The notes: a model not told the origin generated them from the sequence alone. Shown: positions 2,627-18,011, counted from the stretch's first letter. The stretch is 64,000 bases of DNA from an uncultured Verrucomicrobiota bacterium (GCA_903953565.1 CAJBKE010000027.1:1-64000); one strand, 5' to 3'. Made by a program: numbers and translations.

Positions 2627-3874
2627 TCAAAAGTCGATCGTGGCGCTCAGTCCGAGAACGAGCGCACCCGGCAGCGCGGTGCTTCCGCCGGGCTGCATGA
2701 TGAATTGCAGGTCCGGTTGCAGCTCGAACCATGGGGTGAGCTGCGCTTCGTAGGTCGCCTCGATCATGAATTCGTTGCCGCGGTTGGCACCCGCGAGTTC
2801 CGCCGACTCTGCGGAGGTGAGGCGCGCCCAGACAAAGGCGAGTCCCGCGGTGTCGTCCTCGCGGCCGGGCACGAGGCCTCCCCACGTGAACCCCGAATTG
2901 AAGAGCACGCCGAGCGGATCGCGGTCCGGTGTGCCGCTGACGAACAAACGACCGAAGCAGGCGAGACCTTGTTGCGCATCGGTGCCCGTTCCCGGTTCGC
3001 GCCAAAGCATCTGGTCAACTATTCCGTAGACATACGAACCGCCCCAAGGATCCCCGCCGCGGGAGACATAATCCTGGTAACCGTTCTCGAGCATGGTGCC
3101 GAGTTGGACCGAGCCGGGGAGAGGAGCGCTCGCCCACGCATACTGCGCCTCGCCGAGGAAAAGCAGCCCGTTGTCGCGGTTGATGCGCCAGTAGAAATTC
3201 GTCGGATTTTCCGACGGAGGCCAGACGACGCCCTGCATCGCTGCGGCACGGAATGTCCATCCACCTCCGGGTTCGATTGCGGCGTAAAGACCCGGTGCGG
3301 CGAAAGGATAAGACGGCGGTCCGCCCAGCGAACCATCGTAAAGGATCGGCCAACCGAATGCGGAATTGAGGAAGAGCTGCGCGCCTTGCGAAACGGTGAA
3401 ATCGCGGTCGGCATTGAACATGCCCGCCCGAAGGGTCAGCACATCGTCGAACAGTTTCTGCTGCACCCAGAGGTCGAGCGCGCGGAAACTGTTCGGTGCC
3501 TCGATGCCGCTGGCGGGAAAGAGCGCGCCGGTCAGCGACGTCGTCGGATTCCCCCCGTAAATCCAAAGCCATGTCGTGCAGAACGACCCGCCTTTCCATC
3601 CGACGAGCTTCTCGAAATCGAGTTCGGCGCCGAATTGCAGCAGCCCCGCATAGGTTGCGCCTTGCTGGATTCCGCCGGTCACATTGCCCCATGTCTGCGA
3701 GGTGTAGGTGGCGATGAATTTACTGCCTTGGTCTTCGAGCAGTGCGCGGTTGCGGTTCCAGTCACCGGTGGCGAGATCCCACTGGGTCCAAGGCTGCGGT
3801 TGCAGTTCGGCGTTCTCTGCCCAGCCTGTAACCACCGGGAAGAAGGCGCAAAAAACCAGCGCCCGCGTCCTCAT
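2627..3874 (-). CDS. OprB-type carbohydrate-selective porin
   Basis: This is a 415-residue outer-membrane beta-barrel protein. A cleavable signal peptide (MRTRALVFCAFFPVVTGWA) is followed by alternating, aromatic-rich strands typical of OprB porins, for example the early WTQWDLATGDWNRNR and repeated Trp/Tyr/Gly pairs. It ends in a short strand closing with Phe (LSATIDF), the C-terminal aromatic used for outer-membrane insertion. OprB proteins pass sugars across the outer membrane. The start ATG overlaps the stop codon of the upstream P-type ATPase (ATGA), an unexpected partner for a sugar porin. The substrate here is unproven. Confidence 0.8.
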   Translation of the reverse strand: MRTRALVFCAFFPVVTGWAENAELQPQPWTQWDLATGDWNRNRALLEDQGSKFIATYTSQTWGNVTGGIQQGATYAGLLQFGAELDFEKLVGWKGGSFCTTWLWIYGGNPTTSLTGALFPASGIEAPNSFRALDLWVQQKLFDDVLTLRAGMFNADRDFTVSQGAQLFLNSAFGWPILYDGSLGGPPSYPFAAPGLYAAIEPGGGWTFRAAAMQGVVWPPSENPTNFYWRINRDNGLLFLGEAQYAWASAPLPGSVQLGTMLENGYQDYVSRGGDPWGGSYVYGIVDQMLWREPGTGTDAQQGLACFGRLFVSGTPDRDPLGVLFNSGFTWGGLVPGREDDTAGLAFVWARLTSAESAELAGANRGNEFMIEATYEAQLTPWFELQPDLQFIMQPGGSTALPGALVLGLSATIDF

Positions 3875-6489
3875 CGGCGCTGTGCGAACAATCGTGCCGC
3901 TTCGCATCCGGCCAGCATGCCGAGACACATACCGATGACCATCGCGGCGTAGGTGAGGAAAAATTGGGCGGGGGCGGAATTGGCATCGATGGGAAGTCCG
4001 GCCAGCGCCATGGCTCCGACCTCCATGCCGAGGAACATGCCGATCAGTCCCGCGATCCAGCACCAAACGCGCGAGGAGAAGGAGAGGAAGATGTCTTTGT
4101 CGACGAACAATCCCGGTAACGCGGCGAGCAGCATGCCGGCGTCCATCCAGGTGAATTTGGCGAGAAGGCCGAGGCCCATGTTCGATTGCGCGCAACCGCA
4201 CAGGCACACGCCGTCGCGCACCACGGCGGTGAAACCGGCGTCGGCCCACCAGCCTCCAAGCATGGCGAGTCCGCCCACGCTGAACATGGCCATGGTCATA
4301 CGTGCGGCGGGTGTCCAGGGGCGTTCGCGAGACCAGAGCAGGACGGCGCCCGCAGCAGCCAGAAAAAGTATGACAAACCCGGCGGCGCCCGCACCGTGAA
4401 ATCCGCCGAGCCATGCGATGACCGGCCCCTGCACGGCGAGCGCGGCGGCGAAAACGAGGCGCTCGACTTGCGGTAAGTCCCAAGCCCTGTGCGCGGTGAG
4501 GGGACGGTCTTTGGCGGCCGCTTTTTGCAGCGCGGTATCGGAAGTTTCGCGCAGCACGCGCCAGGTGACGGTGAGGCTCGAGACGAGCATGATGAGGGCG
4601 GCGGCGATCGGATGGAGGATCCCCGCAGCGGCGAGGCCGATGCCGAAAATGTTGTAGCAGGCGGCGAAGGCAATGTTGCGGCGGATGGCCCGCACGGTGG
4701 CGCGGCAGAGGGCGATGGATTGCGGGACAACGCGCAGGTCCTGTCCGTTGAGTTCCAGTCCGGCCGTCTCGCGGGGCAATTCGCTACCCGCGCCCATGGC
4801 GATGCTCGCCGTGGCGGCGGCCATGGCGGGGGCGTCGTTGATGCCGTCGCCGATGAAGAGGACTCTGCTTCCGGCCGCGCGCAATTTTTCCACCTCGCGC
4901 AATTTCGCGTCGGGGGAGAGTCCGGCCAGACACTCGTCGAAGCCGAAGCGCGCCGCGTTCTCCTCGCGGTCGCCGGTCATGACGATGGTGCGGATGCCGA
5001 GGGATTTCATCTGCGCCATGGCTTCGCGGGCCGAATCGCGGAGTGACTCGCGAACCACAGCCAGACCGCAAAGGCGTCCGTCGCGGCGGATGAAAATCTC
5101 GTGGCCGCCTTTTTCCTCCGTGGCGAGCTGGGTGTGCAACGTTTCGCGTCCGTCACCGGGTGCGAGGATGCCGTCGTTGCCGATTTGCAGCGCCGTGCCG
5201 TCGGGCAAGGTGCCTTCGATGCCTGCGCCTGGCAGCACGCGGATAGCGCGGGCCAACAGCGTGGAGTTTGTGGTTGCGGCGGACCGGAAGGCGCGGGCGA
5301 TGGGGTGTCCGCTGCCGGTTTGCACCGCGGCGATTTCGCGCAGCAGTTGCGCGCGGTCCGTGCCGGGCGCGACAACGAAGTCGACGATGCGCGCATCGCT
5401 TTCGCTCAGCGTTCCAGTTTTGTCGAAGACGGCCGTATCGATCAAAGCGAGCGCTTCGATCGCATCGCCGCCGCGGGCGAAGAGTCCGCGTTTGGCCAAC
5501 GCGGCGAGAGCCGACCAGATGGCGACCGGGGTGGCCAGTCCCATCGCGCAGGGGCAAGCCACGAGAAGGACGGCGAGGCCGTTGAAAACGCCGGTGATCC
5601 ATCCGCTCTGCAGGGTCCAGCCGAGGGTGGTCAGCGCGGCGATGACAAGCACGAGAGGAAGGAACCACGAGACCAGACGATCGGCCTCGCGCTGGATGCG
5701 TCCGGGATTCCGGCGCGCTTCTTCGATCGAGCGCAGCAAGGTGTCGAGCCGGCGGGAGCGTCCGCGCGAGGTAGCGGCAATCCGCAGCGTGCTGTCTTCC
5801 ACCCTGCTGCCGGCTTGGACCGCGTCGCCGGCGCGTTTGACCACGGGGTAGGGTTCGCCGGTCAGCGCGGCTTCATCGACCAGAGCCACTCCATCGGAAA
5901 CCTTGCCATCGACAGGGATGCCTTCACCCGCACCGACCAGAACTTCGTCGCCGGGTACGATGCGGTCGACGGTGACCGTTTCGCGGTGGCCGGCGGAGTC
6001 GACGCGTTGGCAAAGATCGAAGGCTGCGCCGATTTTTTCGATGGAACGCCGTAGGACGTCGCGGCGTTGGCGCGCGAGGATGGTGCCGAAGGTGTAGATG
6101 GCGACCAGCACGGCAACCACTTCGTAATAGACGCTGCCTGTTCCGGTGAGCGAGCTGTGCACCGAGGCAAAAAACGCGCCGAAGATGCCGACGAGGAAAA
6201 ATTGTTCGAAGACGATCCTGCCGTGGCGGATCGCGTCCCATGACTCACGCAGGATGGGAAGACCGGCGAGGAGGAAGACGCCGAGAGCCGAGAGGGCGAG
6301 GGCGCCGTGGAGGATCCAGCGCGCGTTGCCTTCGACCGGCGACATGTTGACCGCGAGGCTGAAAATCATGGCCTGCGCGGCGAGGAGTCCGGCCATGCCG
6401 ATGCGCAGCCAAGTCTTGGCTTCGCGGTTGAGCACGAGCTGATCGGACGGATCCTCGCAAGTTGTCGGGTTGTGACAGCAGGCGGACAT
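3871..6489 (-). CDS. P1B-type heavy-metal ATPase with extra C-terminal membrane domain
   Basis: This is an inner-membrane metal pump of 872 residues. It has the transport motif CPC (Cys312-Pro-Cys314), the phosphorylation site DKTGT (Asp356), the SGHP motif of P1B pumps, TGD and the hinge GDGINDAP. CPC suggests Cu(I)/Ag(I) or a related soft metal. There is no N-terminal HMA domain. Instead the first 13 residues are Cys/His-rich (MSACCHNPTTCED). After the normal last helix pair the protein continues for about 200 residues with some six hydrophobic segments and a CLCGC cluster (Cys762, 764, 766). Usual CPC pumps end near residue 650-700, so this tail is a fusion or extension. It is translationally coupled to the OprB-like porin. 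Confidence 0.9.
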   Translation of the reverse strand: MSACCHNPTTCEDPSDQLVLNREAKTWLRIGMAGLLAAQAMIFSLAVNMSPVEGNARWILHGALALSALGVFLLAGLPILRESWDAIRHGRIVFEQFFLVGIFGAFFASVHSSLTGTGSVYYEVVAVLVAIYTFGTILARQRRDVLRRSIEKIGAAFDLCQRVDSAGHRETVTVDRIVPGDEVLVGAGEGIPVDGKVSDGVALVDEAALTGEPYPVVKRAGDAVQAGSRVEDSTLRIAATSRGRSRRLDTLLRSIEEARRNPGRIQREADRLVSWFLPLVLVIAALTTLGWTLQSGWITGVFNGLAVLLVACPCAMGLATPVAIWSALAALAKRGLFARGGDAIEALALIDTAVFDKTGTLSESDARIVDFVVAPGTDRAQLLREIAAVQTGSGHPIARAFRSAATTNSTLLARAIRVLPGAGIEGTLPDGTALQIGNDGILAPGDGRETLHTQLATEEKGGHEIFIRRDGRLCGLAVVRESLRDSAREAMAQMKSLGIRTIVMTGDREENAARFGFDECLAGLSPDAKLREVEKLRAAGSRVLFIGDGINDAPAMAAATASIAMGAGSELPRETAGLELNGQDLRVVPQSIALCRATVRAIRRNIAFAACYNIFGIGLAAAGILHPIAAALIMLVSSLTVTWRVLRETSDTALQKAAAKDRPLTAHRAWDLPQVERLVFAAALAVQGPVIAWLGGFHGAGAAGFVILFLAAAGAVLLWSRERPWTPAARMTMAMFSVGGLAMLGGWWADAGFTAVVRDGVCLCGCAQSNMGLGLLAKFTWMDAGMLLAALPGLFVDKDIFLSFSSRVWCWIAGLIGMFLGMEVGAMALAGLPIDANSAPAQFFLTYAAMVIGMCLGMLAGCEAARLFAQRR

Positions 6490-10214: not shown

Positions 10215-10241
10215 TTGCGTTGTCTATTTTTTATGTATAAT
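10215..10241 (+). promoter_or_regulatory. Candidate promoter of the giant amylase gene
   Basis: TTGCGT at 10215-10220 and a perfect TATAAT at 10236-10241 are separated by 15 bases, slightly short of the optimum. If real, transcription would start near 10248. The ATG at 10233 would then lie inside the promoter, favouring the TTG at 10293 as the translation start. Confidence 0.4.
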
Positions 10242-10292
10242 TTGGCTGGTTCGCGGTCGGTCCCCCCGGTCGCTCTTTCATCTCAACACCCC

Positions 10293-13200
10293 TTGAACAC
10301 GAACCTGATACGTAGGTCTCTCCTCGCTGTGGCGGTTCTCTGGTCGCTGGGAGCGGGTGTCCGCGCTGAAGTCATCATCCAGTATTTCGAGACGCGCTGG
10401 GACGAGATCTATCAGAGGCTGCCGGAGATTGCGGAACTCGGTTACGAGTCCGTCTGGACCCCGCCCCCGGGCAAATCGCCGATCGGCGGTCCTTACCCCC
10501 ATGCTTACGGCGGCAATGTAGGTTACAACTCCCTCGACCGTTTCGATCTCGGTGATCATCCGCAACGCGGCCATTGGGAGACGCGCTACGGTTCGCGCAC
10601 GTCAATGCGCAACATGGTGGACAACGCCCACCAGATGGATCTCAAGATTTATCCGGATATCGTTTTCAACCACACGGGCAACGGACCGGACTACCGCACT
10701 TATCCCGGCATGGTGCCGCAGGATTTTCATATTTTTGTGGACGCCAACCAGCCCGGAGGCTTCCGCCGTCCGCCCCGCATGTTCCAGTGGACTCCAGACA
10801 ATGGTTACGGCGGCACGCTGCACCAGGAGTTGGTCAGCTTGATGGATATCGTGCTGGAGTTCGACGGCCGTTTCCAAGGCGGTAATTCTCCCAACTACGC
10901 CTCGGACCCGGCGCCGTTCGTCCGCCACCCCGGCGATCTGGAGAAATACCCGTATTTCAACCAGACCGGCTATCCGAACGAAAACGCGCGCGATTTCGTG
11001 ACGCGTTGGATCAACTGGCTTGGCTACGCCATGGACTATGACGGTGTGCGCCTCGATGCACCGAAGCACGTGGGTAAGGAGTATTTCGGTCTCCCGGCTC
11101 AGGACGAAACGACGCGTAACAAAACGCTCATCTACAACATCCAGAAAAATTTCAACGAGCGCCGCGGATTAACGGACGCGGATCCGTTCGACGACATGTA
11201 TGCGAACTACCTCCGCCGCGACGATGCGCTGGTTTATTCGGAATTTTTCATCGGGTCGGTGGGCGAAGTGGATTACTGGCGCAGCCCGACCAACCCGAGC
11301 CAAGGTATCAAAACGCGCTATCTCGATTTTCCGCGCAAGTCGCAGATGATCGGGGATGCTTTCAACAACGGGAACCTGGGTGCACTGGCCGGTTTTGCCG
11401 GTTTCAGTCCGGAGGAAGGTGTCATGTTCGCCCACAGCCACGACGAGGATGCGCCGGTCAAGTTGGAGCTCGCCTACGCCTACATCCTCACCCGCGTCGG
11501 CACGCCGGTGGTCTATTTCACCGGCAACAACCTCGCCGACAACGAGGACAAAGAAGAGAACGGCATCACTTGGATGCGCAAGGGCTACGACGGCGCGCTC
11601 GGCGACTTCAACATGGGGACCATCCCCAACCTAATCCACATCCACAACCAATTCGCCCGCGGGAAGGAATGGACCCGTTGGGCCGAAGGCGACTTCTTCG
11701 CCCACGAGCGCTATCAGGACGCGAACAACAACGGCACCCCCGACTCCGGCGAGGGCCTCCTCTTGGTCGCGCTCAACGATTCCGGTTTCGATCAGACGCG
11801 CAACGGCATCCAGACGTCCTTTGCACCCGGCACGCTTTTGAAGGATTACACCGGTCGCAATCTCGACGTGGTCACCGTCGGCAGCGACGGAAAAGTCAAT
11901 CTCCGCGTGCCCGGCTGGTGGGGGCAGGGATTTGTCTGCTACGCGCCGTTCAACGCGCAAGGTCCGGCCAGCGGAAGCCCGATCACTTTCGAAGGCCAAG
12001 GCGTCGCAACCATGCCGTGGATCGTCCCGGGCGGACGCGATGCCGCGTCCAAGCCGCGCACGATCACACGCCTGACCGGCAACACAGCCACGATCAATGT
12101 CTTCTACCGGCAACCCGCGCAGGGCGGCGAGACCGTGGACAATGTCCTCCTTAAGTGGGGTCAAGGCCGCAACCTCAACGCCAGTGCCCTGGATTTCGGC
12201 GGCAAGGACGTGGTCATCGGTGGCTTCGAGCAAATGACCAAAATGACCGATGGCCATTACAAATTGGATGTGGATCTGACCAACGTTCCCGAGGGGCTGC
12301 ATACCGTGAAGGCCCGCATCTTCAACGGACGCACGAACAGCAAACCGGCACTTTTCCAGACGTTCACCACCACCGTGTATGTCGATCGGCGCGGACCGGA
12401 TCTGGCTTTTGCCAATCTCAACGAGGGCGAAACGGTCGAGGGAGCGCGTGTGGTCACGGTGGAGAATGCCGACCGCACGCTCCACAATCTGACTTACTCG
12501 CTCAACGGCGGACCGCAGCAGCAGGCCGACCAAGTCATCCAAGGTCGTTGGCGCATCGCGCTCGACGGACTCCCTGCCGGACCCAATGCTATCACCCTTA
12601 CCGCAACGGAGGCGGACCGCGGTTCCAACCGCTCGGTCATCAATACTTCCACGCTCACGCGGAACTTCACGGCCAACACCACCGGAGAATCCATCGCGAT
12701 CAACCACGCCAATGGCGCGACGATTGCGGAGCCGTTCTTCAAGACGGTTGTCACTGTTCCTGCGGATAAAGGTATCACGGCGAGCGACATCAAACTTTTC
12801 TGGAACGGCTACGAACAGTTGCCGCTGGTCGAGAATCCCGTCGGCAGCGGGAAATTCGAGTCCACCTTCACCGGCCGCTACCGGCAGGGCGGGGTGGACA
12901 AAATTTTCTACGGAGCCTTTGTCAACGGTTCACATTTCTTCGAGGCCGTGGTCACCAAGGGCGGCCAAGAAAACCGTTCCGCGCGTCGCGTGGTCTTCAA
13001 CCTCTACGGTCAAAATCTGCACGATTCGGACGGTGACGGTCTGCCTGACGATATCGAGCTGAACAACTTCCTGAGCGGACGCAACCCCGGTCCCAATCGC
13101 GCGTTGCCCGGCGATGGCCCTGGTTTGGACAACATTCCGAACTACGGCGAGAACTGGACCCGTCTCAACCCGATGAACGCCGAGACGTATTACAACGGCC

Positions 13201-16200
13201 AATGGGACGGTGACCGCGACTCGGATGGCGATGGCGTCAGCAACATTCAGGAACTGCTCCGCGGCCTCCGCATCAGCGGCAACGTTTACGCTTATGACAT
13301 GTATAACGGCGCCAGCGTCCCGCCCGCCACGGTGGGTTCGTTCGCCACTTCGAACCTCACCATGTCCGGCGGCAACAAGATCGTCACCATCACCTACCGC
13401 CCGAACGACGGACCTCTGGCCAATGCCTCGGCCGTGACGGTCAACATCACCCCGGTCGGCGGCGGTTCGGCCCAGAGCTTCACCATGACCGGTGGTCCGA
13501 CCGAGTTCACCTACTCCTATACCGTGCCGGCAAACGCCACGGCGGTGAACTACAACTTCGGGAGCGGCGGGACGACGGACAACACGGGTGGTGCGTCCTG
13601 GTCTGCCTCGACCACGGCCGCGTTCGTCATGGATGGTCAGTTCGACAGCCAAAACTTCGTTGTTTCGGACAACGGCATGCGCATCTACGCGGCCGTCCGC
13701 GGCAACAAACTTTACACCGCGACGTGGTCGCCGAAGAGCGGAGTCAATGATCACGTCATCTACATCACGGATCAGTTCGGCAATCCGGTCACGGCCGGTC
13801 CGGCCACGGATTCGGATTCAGCCTCCAATTACACGACTTGGGCCAATGGTAGTAACCAAGGAACCGGATTCGGACCATGGTCGATCGTCAGCAGTGGCAA
13901 TGTGTCTGGAGTTTTTACGGGAAATCCCAGCGCGGCGGGAATTTCCGGAATGGACGCCAAGTCTTTTGGTCTTTACGCCAAAGGCGGCTCAGGTTCGAGC
14001 GTGCAGGCCTTCCGCACGCTGACAACTCCGCTCGCGGTTGGGGACTCGCTTGCTTTCCAGTGGGCCATGAATTGGGAAAGCGGTGCCGGTGGAGAGAAGG
14101 GTTTCAACATTCGCGCGGGCAGCACCTTCTTGCTCAACGTAAAAAACCAGAACGATGCGAGGATTCTGGTCGCAGATGTAGACTCCGGGATGGCTTACGG
14201 CTCGCAAGCTATGAACTGGTCGATCACCCGGTCGGCGAACAACGTATTGAGCGTCAGAGCTACGACGCGGGATGGAAAGAGTGTTTTCTCGCGCGATGTT
14301 ACGGTTAGCGCAGCTGCACCGAGCCAAATTGAGTTCTATGCACAAAACCTTGCGGGAGACGATCAACGTCAGCCCTACTTCAACGACCTGCGCATTTACC
14401 GCAACAGCGCCTCGGCCAAGGGCGGGCAAGTCTACGGTGCATTCAACGGCACGGCGAATTCCAAGCCGTGGCTCTTCTCCACGCCGAATGTCGCCTCGCA
14501 ATACGGCTTCAAGACTTCCGGAAGAAATTGGCTCGGCAATCAGGGTGCGGCTCTCGAGTCGGAACTCGATTTGGTCGAGGCTTTCGGCTCGGTTCCTAAA
14601 ACGATTTTCATCGCGGTCGGCGCCTACTCGGGAGGCTTTGGCGGCACGCTGCTTTCCCAAGCCCCGGCCAAATTCGGAAACTCGGACAACGACATCGAAG
14701 TTCCGGAATACCAGCCGCTCAACATCGAGTCACTCCGCGACGATGACCTTGACGGAAATTTCGACATCGGCAATCCGGAAATGATTGTGGCGGTCAATGG
14801 CAACGAGACCGATGGCAACTACGGCCTGCGCCGCTTTTATCTCGACGAGGTGGCGGGTGACACCTCCGCACTGACGGTCAAATTCCGGCCGAATGTGGGG
14901 GGCTCCGTCTCCAACGTGGAAGTTTTCACCAACCTCAACCGCCGCGACAAAGCTGTCCTCGATGAGAATCCATCCACAGTAACCACTTCGTCGGACACCT
15001 ATTTCCGCGCCTACGCAATGTCCGGCCCCGATGCGAATGGCTACTACACAGCCACGCTGCCGGTGGAACTCTGCGGCGCCTATCGCCTGCAAGTGCGCTA
15101 CAAAGTCGCCGGGGTCAACGGCGGCAACTACATCTACTACACCGACAACGGCCTCCGCCGCGATTGTGCCGTTGTCGTCTCGCCGAAGAAGGCGCTCGAG
15201 ATGAACATGTATGAGGTCAACCCGCTCATCGTCGAAGCCAAGGACACCACGATCAACGGACGCAGCACGTTCCTCGATCTGGTCAATGATCCCGCGTTGC
15301 CCGGCGAATCTGGCGGCTTCGACGGGCGTCCCGACGCGTTGAACAAGGATCACTACGCCGCGTTGGGCATCAACATGCTCTGGCTGCAGCCCATCCACCC
15401 GATCGGTATCGAGGGTCGCGATATCAACCCTGAGACTAGTGCGGCCTTCGATCCCGGCAGCCCCTATGCCGTGCGCGACTATTGGAAGGTGGCCGGGATG
15501 CTCGGACGCAGCAACAACGAGGGCAATGCGATGTCCGAGTTCCAGACATTCGTCCAGCGCCTCGACCAATGGGGTGTCGGCGTGATGATGGATGGCACCT
15601 TCAATCACAGCTCACCCGATGCGATCATGGGTCAGGGCGCGGTCGATCTTGGTATCAGCGGAGATGGAACCCAGCAGATCCGCAACTTCAACACCGGTTG
15701 GTATGCCAAGGAGGGCTTCCCTGCCACGCCGGCAGCCAACACGAGCGAAATCGCCATCGCGCCGGACCGCAACGACTTCGGCAATTGGACTGACGTGCGC
15801 GAATTCTATTTCGGCGATTACGATGCGCTGGTCAAAGAGAAGGGGACGCAGAATCCCGACAAGAGCTATCCGGACAACGCCTACAAGCTCGCCTTCCTGC
15901 TCGAGCGCGACGAGTTCGCCGGTCACACCGCGACCACGCGCCAAGTCTGGAACTACTTCGCCTACTATCCGATCTACTGGCTGGAAAAATCCGGTCATAC
16001 CGCCTCGACCCCGAAGAACCAGTCGTACCTTGGCATCGACGGCCTGCGCTGCGACTTCGCGCAGGGTCTGCCCTCGCAGTTCTGGGAGTATGCCATTAAC
16101 AAAACCCGCGCCCGGAAGTGGGACTTCATCTTCATGGCAGAGTCGCTTGATGGCGCCCGTGAAGTTGCCGGCAGCAGACGCCACGGCGTGGGCTACCGCT

Positions 16201-18011
16201 CGGCGCGCCATTTCGACGTGCTCAACGAAAATATCGTCTTCTACTGGCGCGACACCTTCTTCGGTTACCCGGCCAACGGGGGAGCGGGCGAAGTCAAAAA
16301 CCCGAAAACCTTCGACACGTGGAAAGCCTACGACGACCGCCGCAACGCGTTCGACAACGTCACCCTGCTCAACAACCTGACCAGCCACGACGAGGTCTTC
16401 CCGCACAACGACGTGTGGAGTATCGCTTACGGCTATGCGCAGGTCGGGGCTCTCGATGGCATCCCTATGCTCATGTATGGGCAGGAGGCCGGCGGGCAGA
16501 ACAGCAAGACTGCTTACAGCGCCAGCGAAACGAACTTCGGCGCGATCAATCCGACCAACAACTTCGGCAAATACGAGGCGAACTTCGGCAAGAACATCCC
16601 GAACTTCAAGGTCTACAACAATATGGCCTCGATTTGGAACAACCGCACGGCTGACGAGTGGCGGCTCCAGACCTTCTACGGCCGCGTGAACAAAGCCCGC
16701 TTGGCCGCGCCGGCGTTGCAAAGCCAGAATGTCTACTTCCTCTCCAAACTCCAGCAAGGCGGCGGCTACGACGACAAAATCTTCGCCGTCGGCAAGGTTA
16801 TCACCCCCGGCCAATCCGCCGGTGCCGTCGGACAGAGCGTGGTCTTCGCCTTCGCGAACAACAATTACCGCGTCAATGCGAATGTCGCGGCCTTGTATGA
16901 TCTCAACGCGAAAATCACCGGCACGGAACTGAACTACTTCGGCATCGAGCGCGGCCGCAGCTACAACGTCAGGGATCTGCTCGCCGATAACCCGAATGCT
17001 TTCGTCTGGCCGACCGCCCGCACCGGCGCGGATCTTCTCGACAACGGGCTTTATGTCGGACTGCCCAACAGCGCACCCGCCACCGGCAGCTACCAGGCGC
17101 AATACCTCCAACTGGTCGACACCTCGTCGCCTGCGGTCAGCTTCGTGCCGCCGCAGTTCGCGACCTTCGGCGAAACATTGTCGCTGTCTGCCACGGTCTC
17201 GCCGGATTCGCCGGTCACCTATTCGGTGGTCGGTGGTGACGCCGGCAAAGTCACGCTCAACGGCAACCAGTTGACGGTCAACTCGGGCACAGGCTCCGTG
17301 ACCATTCGCGCCACCGTGGCCGCTACCGCCGATCGCCCCGGTGCCAGTGTCGATGCGATCATCACCTTCAAGAAGGCCGCGCAAACGATCGCCTTCGACT
17401 TGGAGAACAACACCTACCCGACCAGCAATCCGCCGGTCACGCTCGCGGCCACAGCCAGCTCGGGACTCACTGTCAGCTATCTCTCCTCGCTTCCGGCGAT
17501 TGCGTCGGTCAATGGCAGCCTGCTCAACTTCCATTCGGCCGGCTCGACCATCATCACGGCCAGCCAAGCGGGCAACGACAACTACGAAGCGGCCACAATC
17601 ATCACGCTAACCGTCGTGGTCTATCAAAGCTCGACGCCTTCCTTCGAGGAAACCTTCCCCGGTCAGGCGGCCACGAGCGACATCGACTTCGACGGTATTC
17701 CTGCGCTGATCGAATACGGCATCGGCGGCACGTCCACCGGCAACGATAACGATCTGCTGCCGGAAATGGTCGAAGATTCCAAGCTGACAATGAGAGCGAT
17801 TGTCCGCACGAATGATCCGCGTCTGTCGGCCGGCGCCCAAGTGAGCACCAACTTCGCCAACGGCTGGTCCGGAACGCTGTTGCCGGGCACGCGGGACACT
17901 GATCAGAATGGCGTGACCGAAGGCTTCGAGCGCCGCATCTATTCGATCGATGCCTCGGCGCACACCCAGACGTTCATCCGGATGCAGTTCGACTTGGCGC
18001 CTCAGCAGTAA
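10293..18011 (+). CDS. Giant secreted tandem GH13 alpha-amylase-family protein
   Basis: This exported protein has about 2,572 residues. A signal peptide (MNTNLIRRSLLAVAVLWSL, then GAGVRA) leads to a first GH13 barrel with catalytic residues Asp255 (GVRLDAP), Glu317 (VYSEFF) and Asp384 (HSHDED). The middle holds calcium-loop repeats (DSDGDG twice), Ig-like modules and a carbohydrate-binding/lectin-like region. A second GH13 barrel begins near residue 1634 with Asp1921 (GLRCDFA), Glu1950 (FMAESLD) and Asp2033 (TSHDEV). Bacterial Ig-like repeats and a verrucomicrobial-type tail close the protein. Both barrels keep all three acidic residues, so both are probably active on alpha-glucans. The TTG start at 10293 is chosen for its signal peptide; the open frame extends up to 10215. 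Confidence 0.9.
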   Translation: MNTNLIRRSLLAVAVLWSLGAGVRAEVIIQYFETRWDEIYQRLPEIAELGYESVWTPPPGKSPIGGPYPHAYGGNVGYNSLDRFDLGDHPQRGHWETRYGSRTSMRNMVDNAHQMDLKIYPDIVFNHTGNGPDYRTYPGMVPQDFHIFVDANQPGGFRRPPRMFQWTPDNGYGGTLHQELVSLMDIVLEFDGRFQGGNSPNYASDPAPFVRHPGDLEKYPYFNQTGYPNENARDFVTRWINWLGYAMDYDGVRLDAPKHVGKEYFGLPAQDETTRNKTLIYNIQKNFNERRGLTDADPFDDMYANYLRRDDALVYSEFFIGSVGEVDYWRSPTNPSQGIKTRYLDFPRKSQMIGDAFNNGNLGALAGFAGFSPEEGVMFAHSHDEDAPVKLELAYAYILTRVGTPVVYFTGNNLADNEDKEENGITWMRKGYDGALGDFNMGTIPNLIHIHNQFARGKEWTRWAEGDFFAHERYQDANNNGTPDSGEGLLLVALNDSGFDQTRNGIQTSFAPGTLLKDYTGRNLDVVTVGSDGKVNLRVPGWWGQGFVCYAPFNAQGPASGSPITFEGQGVATMPWIVPGGRDAASKPRTITRLTGNTATINVFYRQPAQGGETVDNVLLKWGQGRNLNASALDFGGKDVVIGGFEQMTKMTDGHYKLDVDLTNVPEGLHTVKARIFNGRTNSKPALFQTFTTTVYVDRRGPDLAFANLNEGETVEGARVVTVENADRTLHNLTYSLNGGPQQQADQVIQGRWRIALDGLPAGPNAITLTATEADRGSNRSVINTSTLTRNFTANTTGESIAINHANGATIAEPFFKTVVTVPADKGITASDIKLFWNGYEQLPLVENPVGSGKFESTFTGRYRQGGVDKIFYGAFVNGSHFFEAVVTKGGQENRSARRVVFNLYGQNLHDSDGDGLPDDIELNNFLSGRNPGPNRALPGDGPGLDNIPNYGENWTRLNPMNAETYYNGQWDGDRDSDGDGVSNIQELLRGLRISGNVYAYDMYNGASVPPATVGSFATSNLTMSGGNKIVTITYRPNDGPLANASAVTVNITPVGGGSAQSFTMTGGPTEFTYSYTVPANATAVNYNFGSGGTTDNTGGASWSASTTAAFVMDGQFDSQNFVVSDNGMRIYAAVRGNKLYTATWSPKSGVNDHVIYITDQFGNPVTAGPATDSDSASNYTTWANGSNQGTGFGPWSIVSSGNVSGVFTGNPSAAGISGMDAKSFGLYAKGGSGSSVQAFRTLTTPLAVGDSLAFQWAMNWESGAGGEKGFNIRAGSTFLLNVKNQNDARILVADVDSGMAYGSQAMNWSITRSANNVLSVRATTRDGKSVFSRDVTVSAAAPSQIEFYAQNLAGDDQRQPYFNDLRIYRNSASAKGGQVYGAFNGTANSKPWLFSTPNVASQYGFKTSGRNWLGNQGAALESELDLVEAFGSVPKTIFIAVGAYSGGFGGTLLSQAPAKFGNSDNDIEVPEYQPLNIESLRDDDLDGNFDIGNPEMIVAVNGNETDGNYGLRRFYLDEVAGDTSALTVKFRPNVGGSVSNVEVFTNLNRRDKAVLDENPSTVTTSSDTYFRAYAMSGPDANGYYTATLPVELCGAYRLQVRYKVAGVNGGNYIYYTDNGLRRDCAVVVSPKKALEMNMYEVNPLIVEAKDTTINGRSTFLDLVNDPALPGESGGFDGRPDALNKDHYAALGINMLWLQPIHPIGIEGRDINPETSAAFDPGSPYAVRDYWKVAGMLGRSNNEGNAMSEFQTFVQRLDQWGVGVMMDGTFNHSSPDAIMGQGAVDLGISGDGTQQIRNFNTGWYAKEGFPATPAANTSEIAIAPDRNDFGNWTDVREFYFGDYDALVKEKGTQNPDKSYPDNAYKLAFLLERDEFAGHTATTRQVWNYFAYYPIYWLEKSGHTASTPKNQSYLGIDGLRCDFAQGLPSQFWEYAINKTRARKWDFIFMAESLDGAREVAGSRRHGVGYRSARHFDVLNENIVFYWRDTFFGYPANGGAGEVKNPKTFDTWKAYDDRRNAFDNVTLLNNLTSHDEVFPHNDVWSIAYGYAQVGALDGIPMLMYGQEAGGQNSKTAYSASETNFGAINPTNNFGKYEANFGKNIPNFKVYNNMASIWNNRTADEWRLQTFYGRVNKARLAAPALQSQNVYFLSKLQQGGGYDDKIFAVGKVITPGQSAGAVGQSVVFAFANNNYRVNANVAALYDLNAKITGTELNYFGIERGRSYNVRDLLADNPNAFVWPTARTGADLLDNGLYVGLPNSAPATGSYQAQYLQLVDTSSPAVSFVPPQFATFGETLSLSATVSPDSPVTYSVVGGDAGKVTLNGNQLTVNSGTGSVTIRATVAATADRPGASVDAIITFKKAAQTIAFDLENNTYPTSNPPVTLAATASSGLTVSYLSSLPAIASVNGSLLNFHSAGSTIITASQAGNDNYEAATIITLTVVVYQSSTPSFEETFPGQAATSDIDFDGIPALIEYGIGGTSTGNDNDLLPEMVEDSKLTMRAIVRTNDPRLSAGAQVSTNFANGWSGTLLPGTRDTDQNGVTEGFERRIYSIDASAHTQTFIRMQFDLAPQQ

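Follow-up and report, generated by a model that had tools for sequence, protein, structure and literature searches.

Why should a copper-type pump without an HMA domain carry a second membrane domain in the same chain? The question is raised by one gene in a 64,000-nucleotide stretch of DNA from an uncultured Verrucomicrobiota bacterium (GCA_903953565.1, CAJBKE010000027.1:1-64000), a stretch called here, at its full length, the window. The gene encodes a P1B-type ATPase whose C-terminal tail holds six predicted transmembrane (TM) helices. The proposal developed below, plausible though tentative, is that a CcoI/FixI-like Cu(I) exporter for loading respiratory proteins is fused to a Met-lined Cu(I) conduit with a periplasmic Cys/His site.

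The pump itself is of a known kind, and its parts are the following.

3871–6489, minus strand: whole gene, P1B-type ATPase (eight TM helices) with a six-TM C-terminal domain; ATG start, 872 amino acids
6451–6489, minus strand: Cys-rich N-terminus, MSACCHNPTTCED, standing where an HMA domain would be
4546–6489, minus strand: ATPase core, residues 1–648; TIGR01525 match over residues 99–645
5548–5556, minus strand: CPC, membrane metal site, residues 312–314, read from the sequence
5410–5424, minus strand: DKTGT phosphorylation motif, residues 356–360, read from the sequence
4828–4851, minus strand: GDGINDAP, residues 547–554, read from the sequence
4651–4656, minus strand: YN of TM7 (Y612, N613), P1B-1 copper signature, read from the sequence
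4576–4590, minus strand: MxxSS of TM8 (M634, S637, S638; residues 634–638), P1B-1 copper signature, read from the sequence

The E1-E2 and HAD domains, DKTGT, GDGxND, TGE and a membrane CPx are all present and place the protein among the P1B ATPases; against TIGR01525, the NCBIfam model of the P1B subfamily, it scores 438.6 bits with a cut-off of 346.25. The P1B-1 copper signature consists of CPC in TM6, YN in TM7 and MxxSS in TM8, and this set of Cu+/Ag+ residues is complete. On the 872-residue protein Pfam reports E1-E2_ATPase and Hydrolase (HAD) only, with no HMA match anywhere. A sequence-only reading of this DNA had described an HMA-less copper-type pump with CPC, DKTGT and GDGINDAP, and that description holds in every part. 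By its motifs the pump is a P1B-1 copper-type ATPase without an HMA domain, with Cu(I) as its predicted substrate. The open reading frame at 3871–6489 (minus strand) begins MSACCHNPTTC, as rich in Cys as had been stated, and an MSxCC-type start is seen through most of the ATPase clade.

The second part of the chain is less familiar. The ATPase models stop at about residue 645, which gives the extension a length of about 225 residues; roughly 200 residues with some six hydrophobic segments and a CLCGC cluster had been anticipated, and all were found.

4474–4545, minus strand: basic linker joining pump to tail, predicted cytoplasmic from lysine and arginine (K/R) counts over homologues
3874–4473, minus strand: tail domain, residues 673–872, predicted to form six TM helices, without a known family
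4249–4287, minus strand: tail helix 3, invariant M735, M743, G746 and W747 (17-row alignment)
4192–4206, minus strand: CLCGC cluster, residues 762–766, in a predicted periplasmic loop that joins tail helices 3 and 4
4132–4146, minus strand: tail helix 4, MxxxM with invariant M782 and M786 (17-row alignment)
4024–4038, minus strand: tail helix 5, MxxGM with invariant M818, G821 and M822 (17-row alignment)
3904–3942, minus strand: tail helix 6, MxxGMxxGMxxxC with invariant M850, M854 and M858 and near-invariant C862 (17-row alignment)

The tail helices are predicted at residues 673–694, 700–720, 727–749, 771–796, 804–829 and 839–871, beyond the normal eight. Their positions agree between both AlphaFold runs, which rested on seven close homologues and gave low-confidence folds, and hydropathy at a threshold of 1.2 backs most of them, tail helix 3 lying just below that value. 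The resulting 14 predicted helices would exceed the range of 7 to 12 that P-type ATPases have according to a 2023 review (PMC10654040). With the usual eight pump helices assumed, K/R counts of the loops assign the CLCGC loop to the periplasm and the C-terminus to the cytoplasm; by the positive-inside rule the Cys loop would face the periplasm.

Sequence and profile searches of the tail against Pfam, NCBIfam and the PDB returned no match, and ten tails searched against Pfam at E ≤ 1 gave no family for any of them, Ctr, CcoA/MFS and DsbD/CcdA included. As the earlier reading supposed, the tail thus matches no named family, and its helices are additional to those of a normal pump. Several identities were tried and rejected: a CcsA heme domain with its WWD motif (hhalign probability 0.4%), a CcdA/DsbD domain (hhalign to one CcdA negative, no Pfam match) and a copy of the ATPase's own N-terminal helices (no similarity). 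The tail might also have occurred elsewhere as a separate gene, but none was found; the window's own genome yields this gene alone, and confident matches in other genomes all lie in ATPase frames or in a broken one. Neither plasmids nor viral contigs yielded the tail. A paper describing the fusion of pump and tail was not found in the literature searched, where most subscription journals are missing. The membrane domain and the fused architecture appear undescribed, and the finding identifies an unnamed domain family.

What the tail conserves above all is methionine. Seventeen tails were aligned, most of them about 30% identical to that of the window; 12 columns are invariant and nine of these are Met (735, 743, 782, 786, 818, 822, 850, 854 and 858). 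On helices 3 to 6 the Met of each helix lie 4 or 8 residues apart, which gives every one of these helices a Met face. The enrichment of Met in conserved columns has a binomial P of about 2e-6, with the expectation taken from how much Met those columns contain, and row shuffling produced no invariant Met column in 300 trials. Near-invariant are D750 and, where helix 6 ends on the inner side, C862. Every one of the 17 tails has two or more Cys or His in the loop that links helices 3 and 4, usually as CLCxC, with a pattern that varies among CLCGC, CLCPC, CLCAC, CSSCC, SHSCCH, CPCCH, CLCC and SCC. Such changing Cys/His patterns would be as for soft-metal ligands, and a variable soft-ligand cluster outside with a thioether ladder across the membrane is how a Cu(I) path would be expected to look. 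Judged from these residues, the tail probably handles Cu(I) in some manner. A separate case is the tail of L031:6201–8891 (genome G363), in which GCGGVHGGIH replaces the Cys cluster, leaving one Cys and three His in the loop, while all the Met are kept.

The fusion is also widespread. Profile searches identified 13 tail-bearing genomes among 213 from the order, leaving out a weak match in G327 that proved to be a chance match to a pilus-assembly-like protein, and 21 among the 384 sampled from the class. Altogether 26 different genomes bear it, across the class within Verrucomicrobiota and in many families, and among the samples of the phylum it is restricted to this class. Apart from contig ends and a single broken frame (G694), it is always read in frame with an ATPase of the window's clade. 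Parsimony requires at least three changes of tail presence on the tree, which allows either a gain with repeated loss or several gains. Because core and tail identities are correlated (Spearman 0.66) and the tail's ratio of nonsynonymous to synonymous substitution (dN/dS) within the genus is about 0.08–0.25, similar to that of the core, the domain is under selection. The repeated changes on the tree and the broken frame in G694 are what a read-through or misassembled fusion, a functionless or decaying extension, would have in its favor. That explanation is already contradicted by the recurrence of this fusion in 26 genomes from many families and by the measures of selection just given, and its probability is vanishingly small.

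Two observations concern the gene in close relatives. The synonymous divergence between the window's ATPase gene and that of L006 is 0.42 in the core and 1.3 in the tail, a hint of mosaic recombination within the gene. The tail-less ATPases of L042 and L043, from the window's genus, have short Cys-rich C-termini (STCCCSHGS... and SAPCCCAATG), possibly a minimal stand-in for the domain.

The company that the pump keeps suggests what it is for. A tree of ATPase cores places the clade (support 100) separate from CopA and ZntA; its nearest references are two CcoI/FixI proteins, with values of 82–88 in the Shimodaira–Hasegawa-like approximate likelihood ratio test (SH-aLRT), and the window's clade is separate from these as well. 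With CcoI/FixI (CopA2), the nearest reference branch, the pump shares the P1B-1 copper motifs and, in two genomes, the neighbors: ccoN, ccoO and a ccoP-like gene precede the ATPase in G424 (tail-less) and G591 (tail-bearing). The position after ccoNOP is the usual place of CcoI. FixI of S. meliloti starts MSCC, similar to the Cys-rich start of the window's clade. Unlike CcoI/FixI, the window's pump lacks HMA, has the six-TM tail and belongs to a clade of its own, one that usually adjoins ResB/CcsA instead of ccoGHIS. CopA, the CopA1 efflux pump, has the same core mechanism and the same CPC, YN and MxxSS but clusters apart; HMA is absent here, and the clade's neighbors are respiratory rather than efflux genes. 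The tail-bearing ATPases at L117:6992–9928 and L120:4601–7387 have a CxxC...CCYGC N-terminus that resembles the N-terminal metal site of CcoI/FixI, again with no HMA, and the window's MSACC start may be a remnant of it.

ResB is the next gene in 17 genomes, mostly with CcsA after it; ten of these bear the tail (G333, G378, G527, G590, G608, G636, G637, G652, G659 and G694) and seven are tail-less (G289, G290, G334, G335, G336, G337 and G367). ResB and CcsA are proteins of System II cytochrome c maturation. Across much of one bacterial class, a copper pump is in this way tied to cytochrome c maturation by CcsBA, a linkage of which the literature searched holds no report. At L067, L068, L069, L071 and L100, in several families of the class, a copper ATPase directly adjoins ResB/CcsA. 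The window's genome has two matches to PF00122, the P-type ATPase domain, and the other protein has SPC rather than CPC; the window's ATPase is the sole CPC-type P1B ATPase found there. Cbb3 and aa3 oxidases are clustered with Sco on another contig of that genome, ccoNOP lies on contig C15, and ResB and CcsA are present elsewhere in it. Neither an HMA-domain protein nor CcoG was found in the assembly, which is 95.7% complete. The pump probably serves the building of respiratory enzymes and cytochrome maturation.

The ResB/CcsA linkage could also be explained if the tail were an electron carrier of the CcdA/DsbD type, holding either copper or the thiols of periplasmic cytochrome c in the reduced state. 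Six helices, a Cys cluster and the near-invariant C862 would fit such a thiol-redox partner, as would the proximity to cytochrome c maturation genes. Yet neither Pfam nor hhalign matches the tail to DsbD or CcdA, invariant Met are unexpected in a redox role, and the L031 loop manages with one Cys and three His. The inconstant Cys pattern weakens the case for a redox site, one of the functions first offered for the tail, and we regard such a site as highly improbable; the others, a metal acceptor or delivery site and a second channel, gain from the nine invariant Met and the constant Cys/His loop.

The field has yet to explain why bacteria import copper only to re-export it for their oxidases, and how the metal travels without becoming free. 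In Rhodobacter, CcoA imports copper for the cbb3 oxidase and CcoI re-exports it (PMC6362234, PMC7558416, PMC8475189). Uptake by CcoA needs MxxxM and HxxxM motifs, and Cys in a periplasmic loop is thought to contribute (PMC6362234, PMC7558416), while the selectivity of Ctr1 for Cu(I) comes from an MX3M motif that forms two layers of Met (PMC6437178). The tail is similar to CcoA/CalT, which has a role in cbb3 assembly (PMC6362234, PMC7558416), in its MxxxM within membrane helices and its periplasmic-loop Cys. It differs in having six helices in place of the major facilitator superfamily (MFS) fold, no MFS match and no conserved HxxxM, and the likeness is one of motif only. With the Ctr family, the eukaryotic Cu(I) channels, it shares the MX3M filter and GxxxG packing; Ctr1, however, is a trimer, whereas the tail is a single chain with four Met-bearing helices and no sequence match to it. 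A Met-lined conduit with a CcoI-like exporter is favored because the tail joins these chemical elements of CcoA and Ctr1 with the pump in one chain.

In this mechanism the P1B-1 pump would be dedicated to the copper loading of periplasm-facing respiratory proteins (cbb3-type oxidase, c-type cytochrome assembly) and not to detoxification. The periplasmic Cys/His cluster, CLCGC here, would bind Cu(I), and the MxxxM stripes of tail helices 3 to 6 would carry it across the membrane to C862 near the cytoplasmic face and on to the point at which copper enters the pump from the cytosol; there the CC motif of the N-terminus would take the role of an HMA. The pump would then export Cu(I) at a defined site for an oxidase or a chaperone. 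Copper as the ligand and the conduit function are what we infer from the sequence, and the uptake direction is the least certain element. The fullest version, a single-chain importer and exporter whose tail takes Cu(I) from the periplasm and hands it intramolecularly to the pump for re-export to a respiratory target, with neither free copper in the cytosol nor an HMA chaperone involved, is doubtful. A natural CcoI-like pump with a membrane domain in which most invariant residues are Met would offer a compact system in which to test the question of copper import and re-export.

Copper might instead be handed off on the exit side, where Cu(I) released by the pump would be held by the Cys/His loop and the upper Met of the tail for a Sco or PCuAC chaperone or the oxidase, and the tail would conduct no net flow of copper. 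This is the main rival because an artificial CcoI-SenC fusion is fully functional and delivers copper to the cbb3 oxidase, SenC being the likely acceptor (PMC8475189). In both proteins one end of a copper ATPase is joined to a copper site, putative in the window's protein, that faces the periplasm, although the artificial one is engineered and carries a soluble Sco-type domain, while the window's tail is natural and membrane-embedded. The predicted periplasmic position of the Cys loop and the Sco encoded in the window's genome are consistent with a hand-off. The invariant Met, however, span the full depth of the membrane, from M782 and M786 near the outside to M854 and M858, with C862, toward the inside, which is beyond the needs of a surface acceptor, and we consider an exit-side hand-off unlikely.

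Several results weigh against the preferred combination of a Met-lined conduit and a CcoI-like exporter. The metal is not decided by the NCBIfam sub-models, because the copper model TIGR01511 stays below its curated cut-off (370.8 bits against 397) while the cadmium model TIGR01512 exceeds its own (327.4 against 313.5). The affinity of the clade to CcoI finds moderate support at most, and in the window's genus the ATPase adjoins OprB rather than oxidase or ResB genes. The tail has no sequence homology to the CcoA or Ctr families. Its predicted folds are unreliable, with a predicted local distance difference test (pLDDT) value of 61.5 for the tail alone and 42.9 for the full chain, and Foldseek returned no match for these low-confidence structures. 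The Met could serve helix packing beside the conserved glycines, and the tail is optional because ten genomes, G338 and G343 of the window's genus and eight others, have same-clade ATPases without it.

Its absence from ten relatives also speaks for a structural or docking domain, with no metal in the tail, whose helices would brace the pump or dock it to CcsBA or oxidase complexes. Extra support helices occur among other P-type ATPases, and helices 5 and 6 contain GxxxG-type packing motifs. It is rare, however, for docking surfaces at about 30% identity to keep hardly any invariant residues besides Met, Gly, Trp and Asp, and all members have the Cys/His loop; a purely bracing or docking role is improbable.

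The gene that adjoins the ATPase in the window encodes a porin.

2627–3874, minus strand: OprB-family porin gene, Pfam OprB 195.7 bits; its ATG overlaps the ATPase stop (ATGA)

The linkage of OprB to the ATPase is confined to the window's own genus, and the porin is a possible partner of the pump, outside the tail domain. In several same-genus relatives OprB, a PBP-like protein and a CitMHS/DASS transporter adjoin the ATPase, a neighborhood that may be a genus-specific link to copper uptake. Further along the window, positions 10215–18011 hold a very long open reading frame of 2598 amino acids that resembles an extracellular alpha-amylase-type glycoside hydrolase with repeats.

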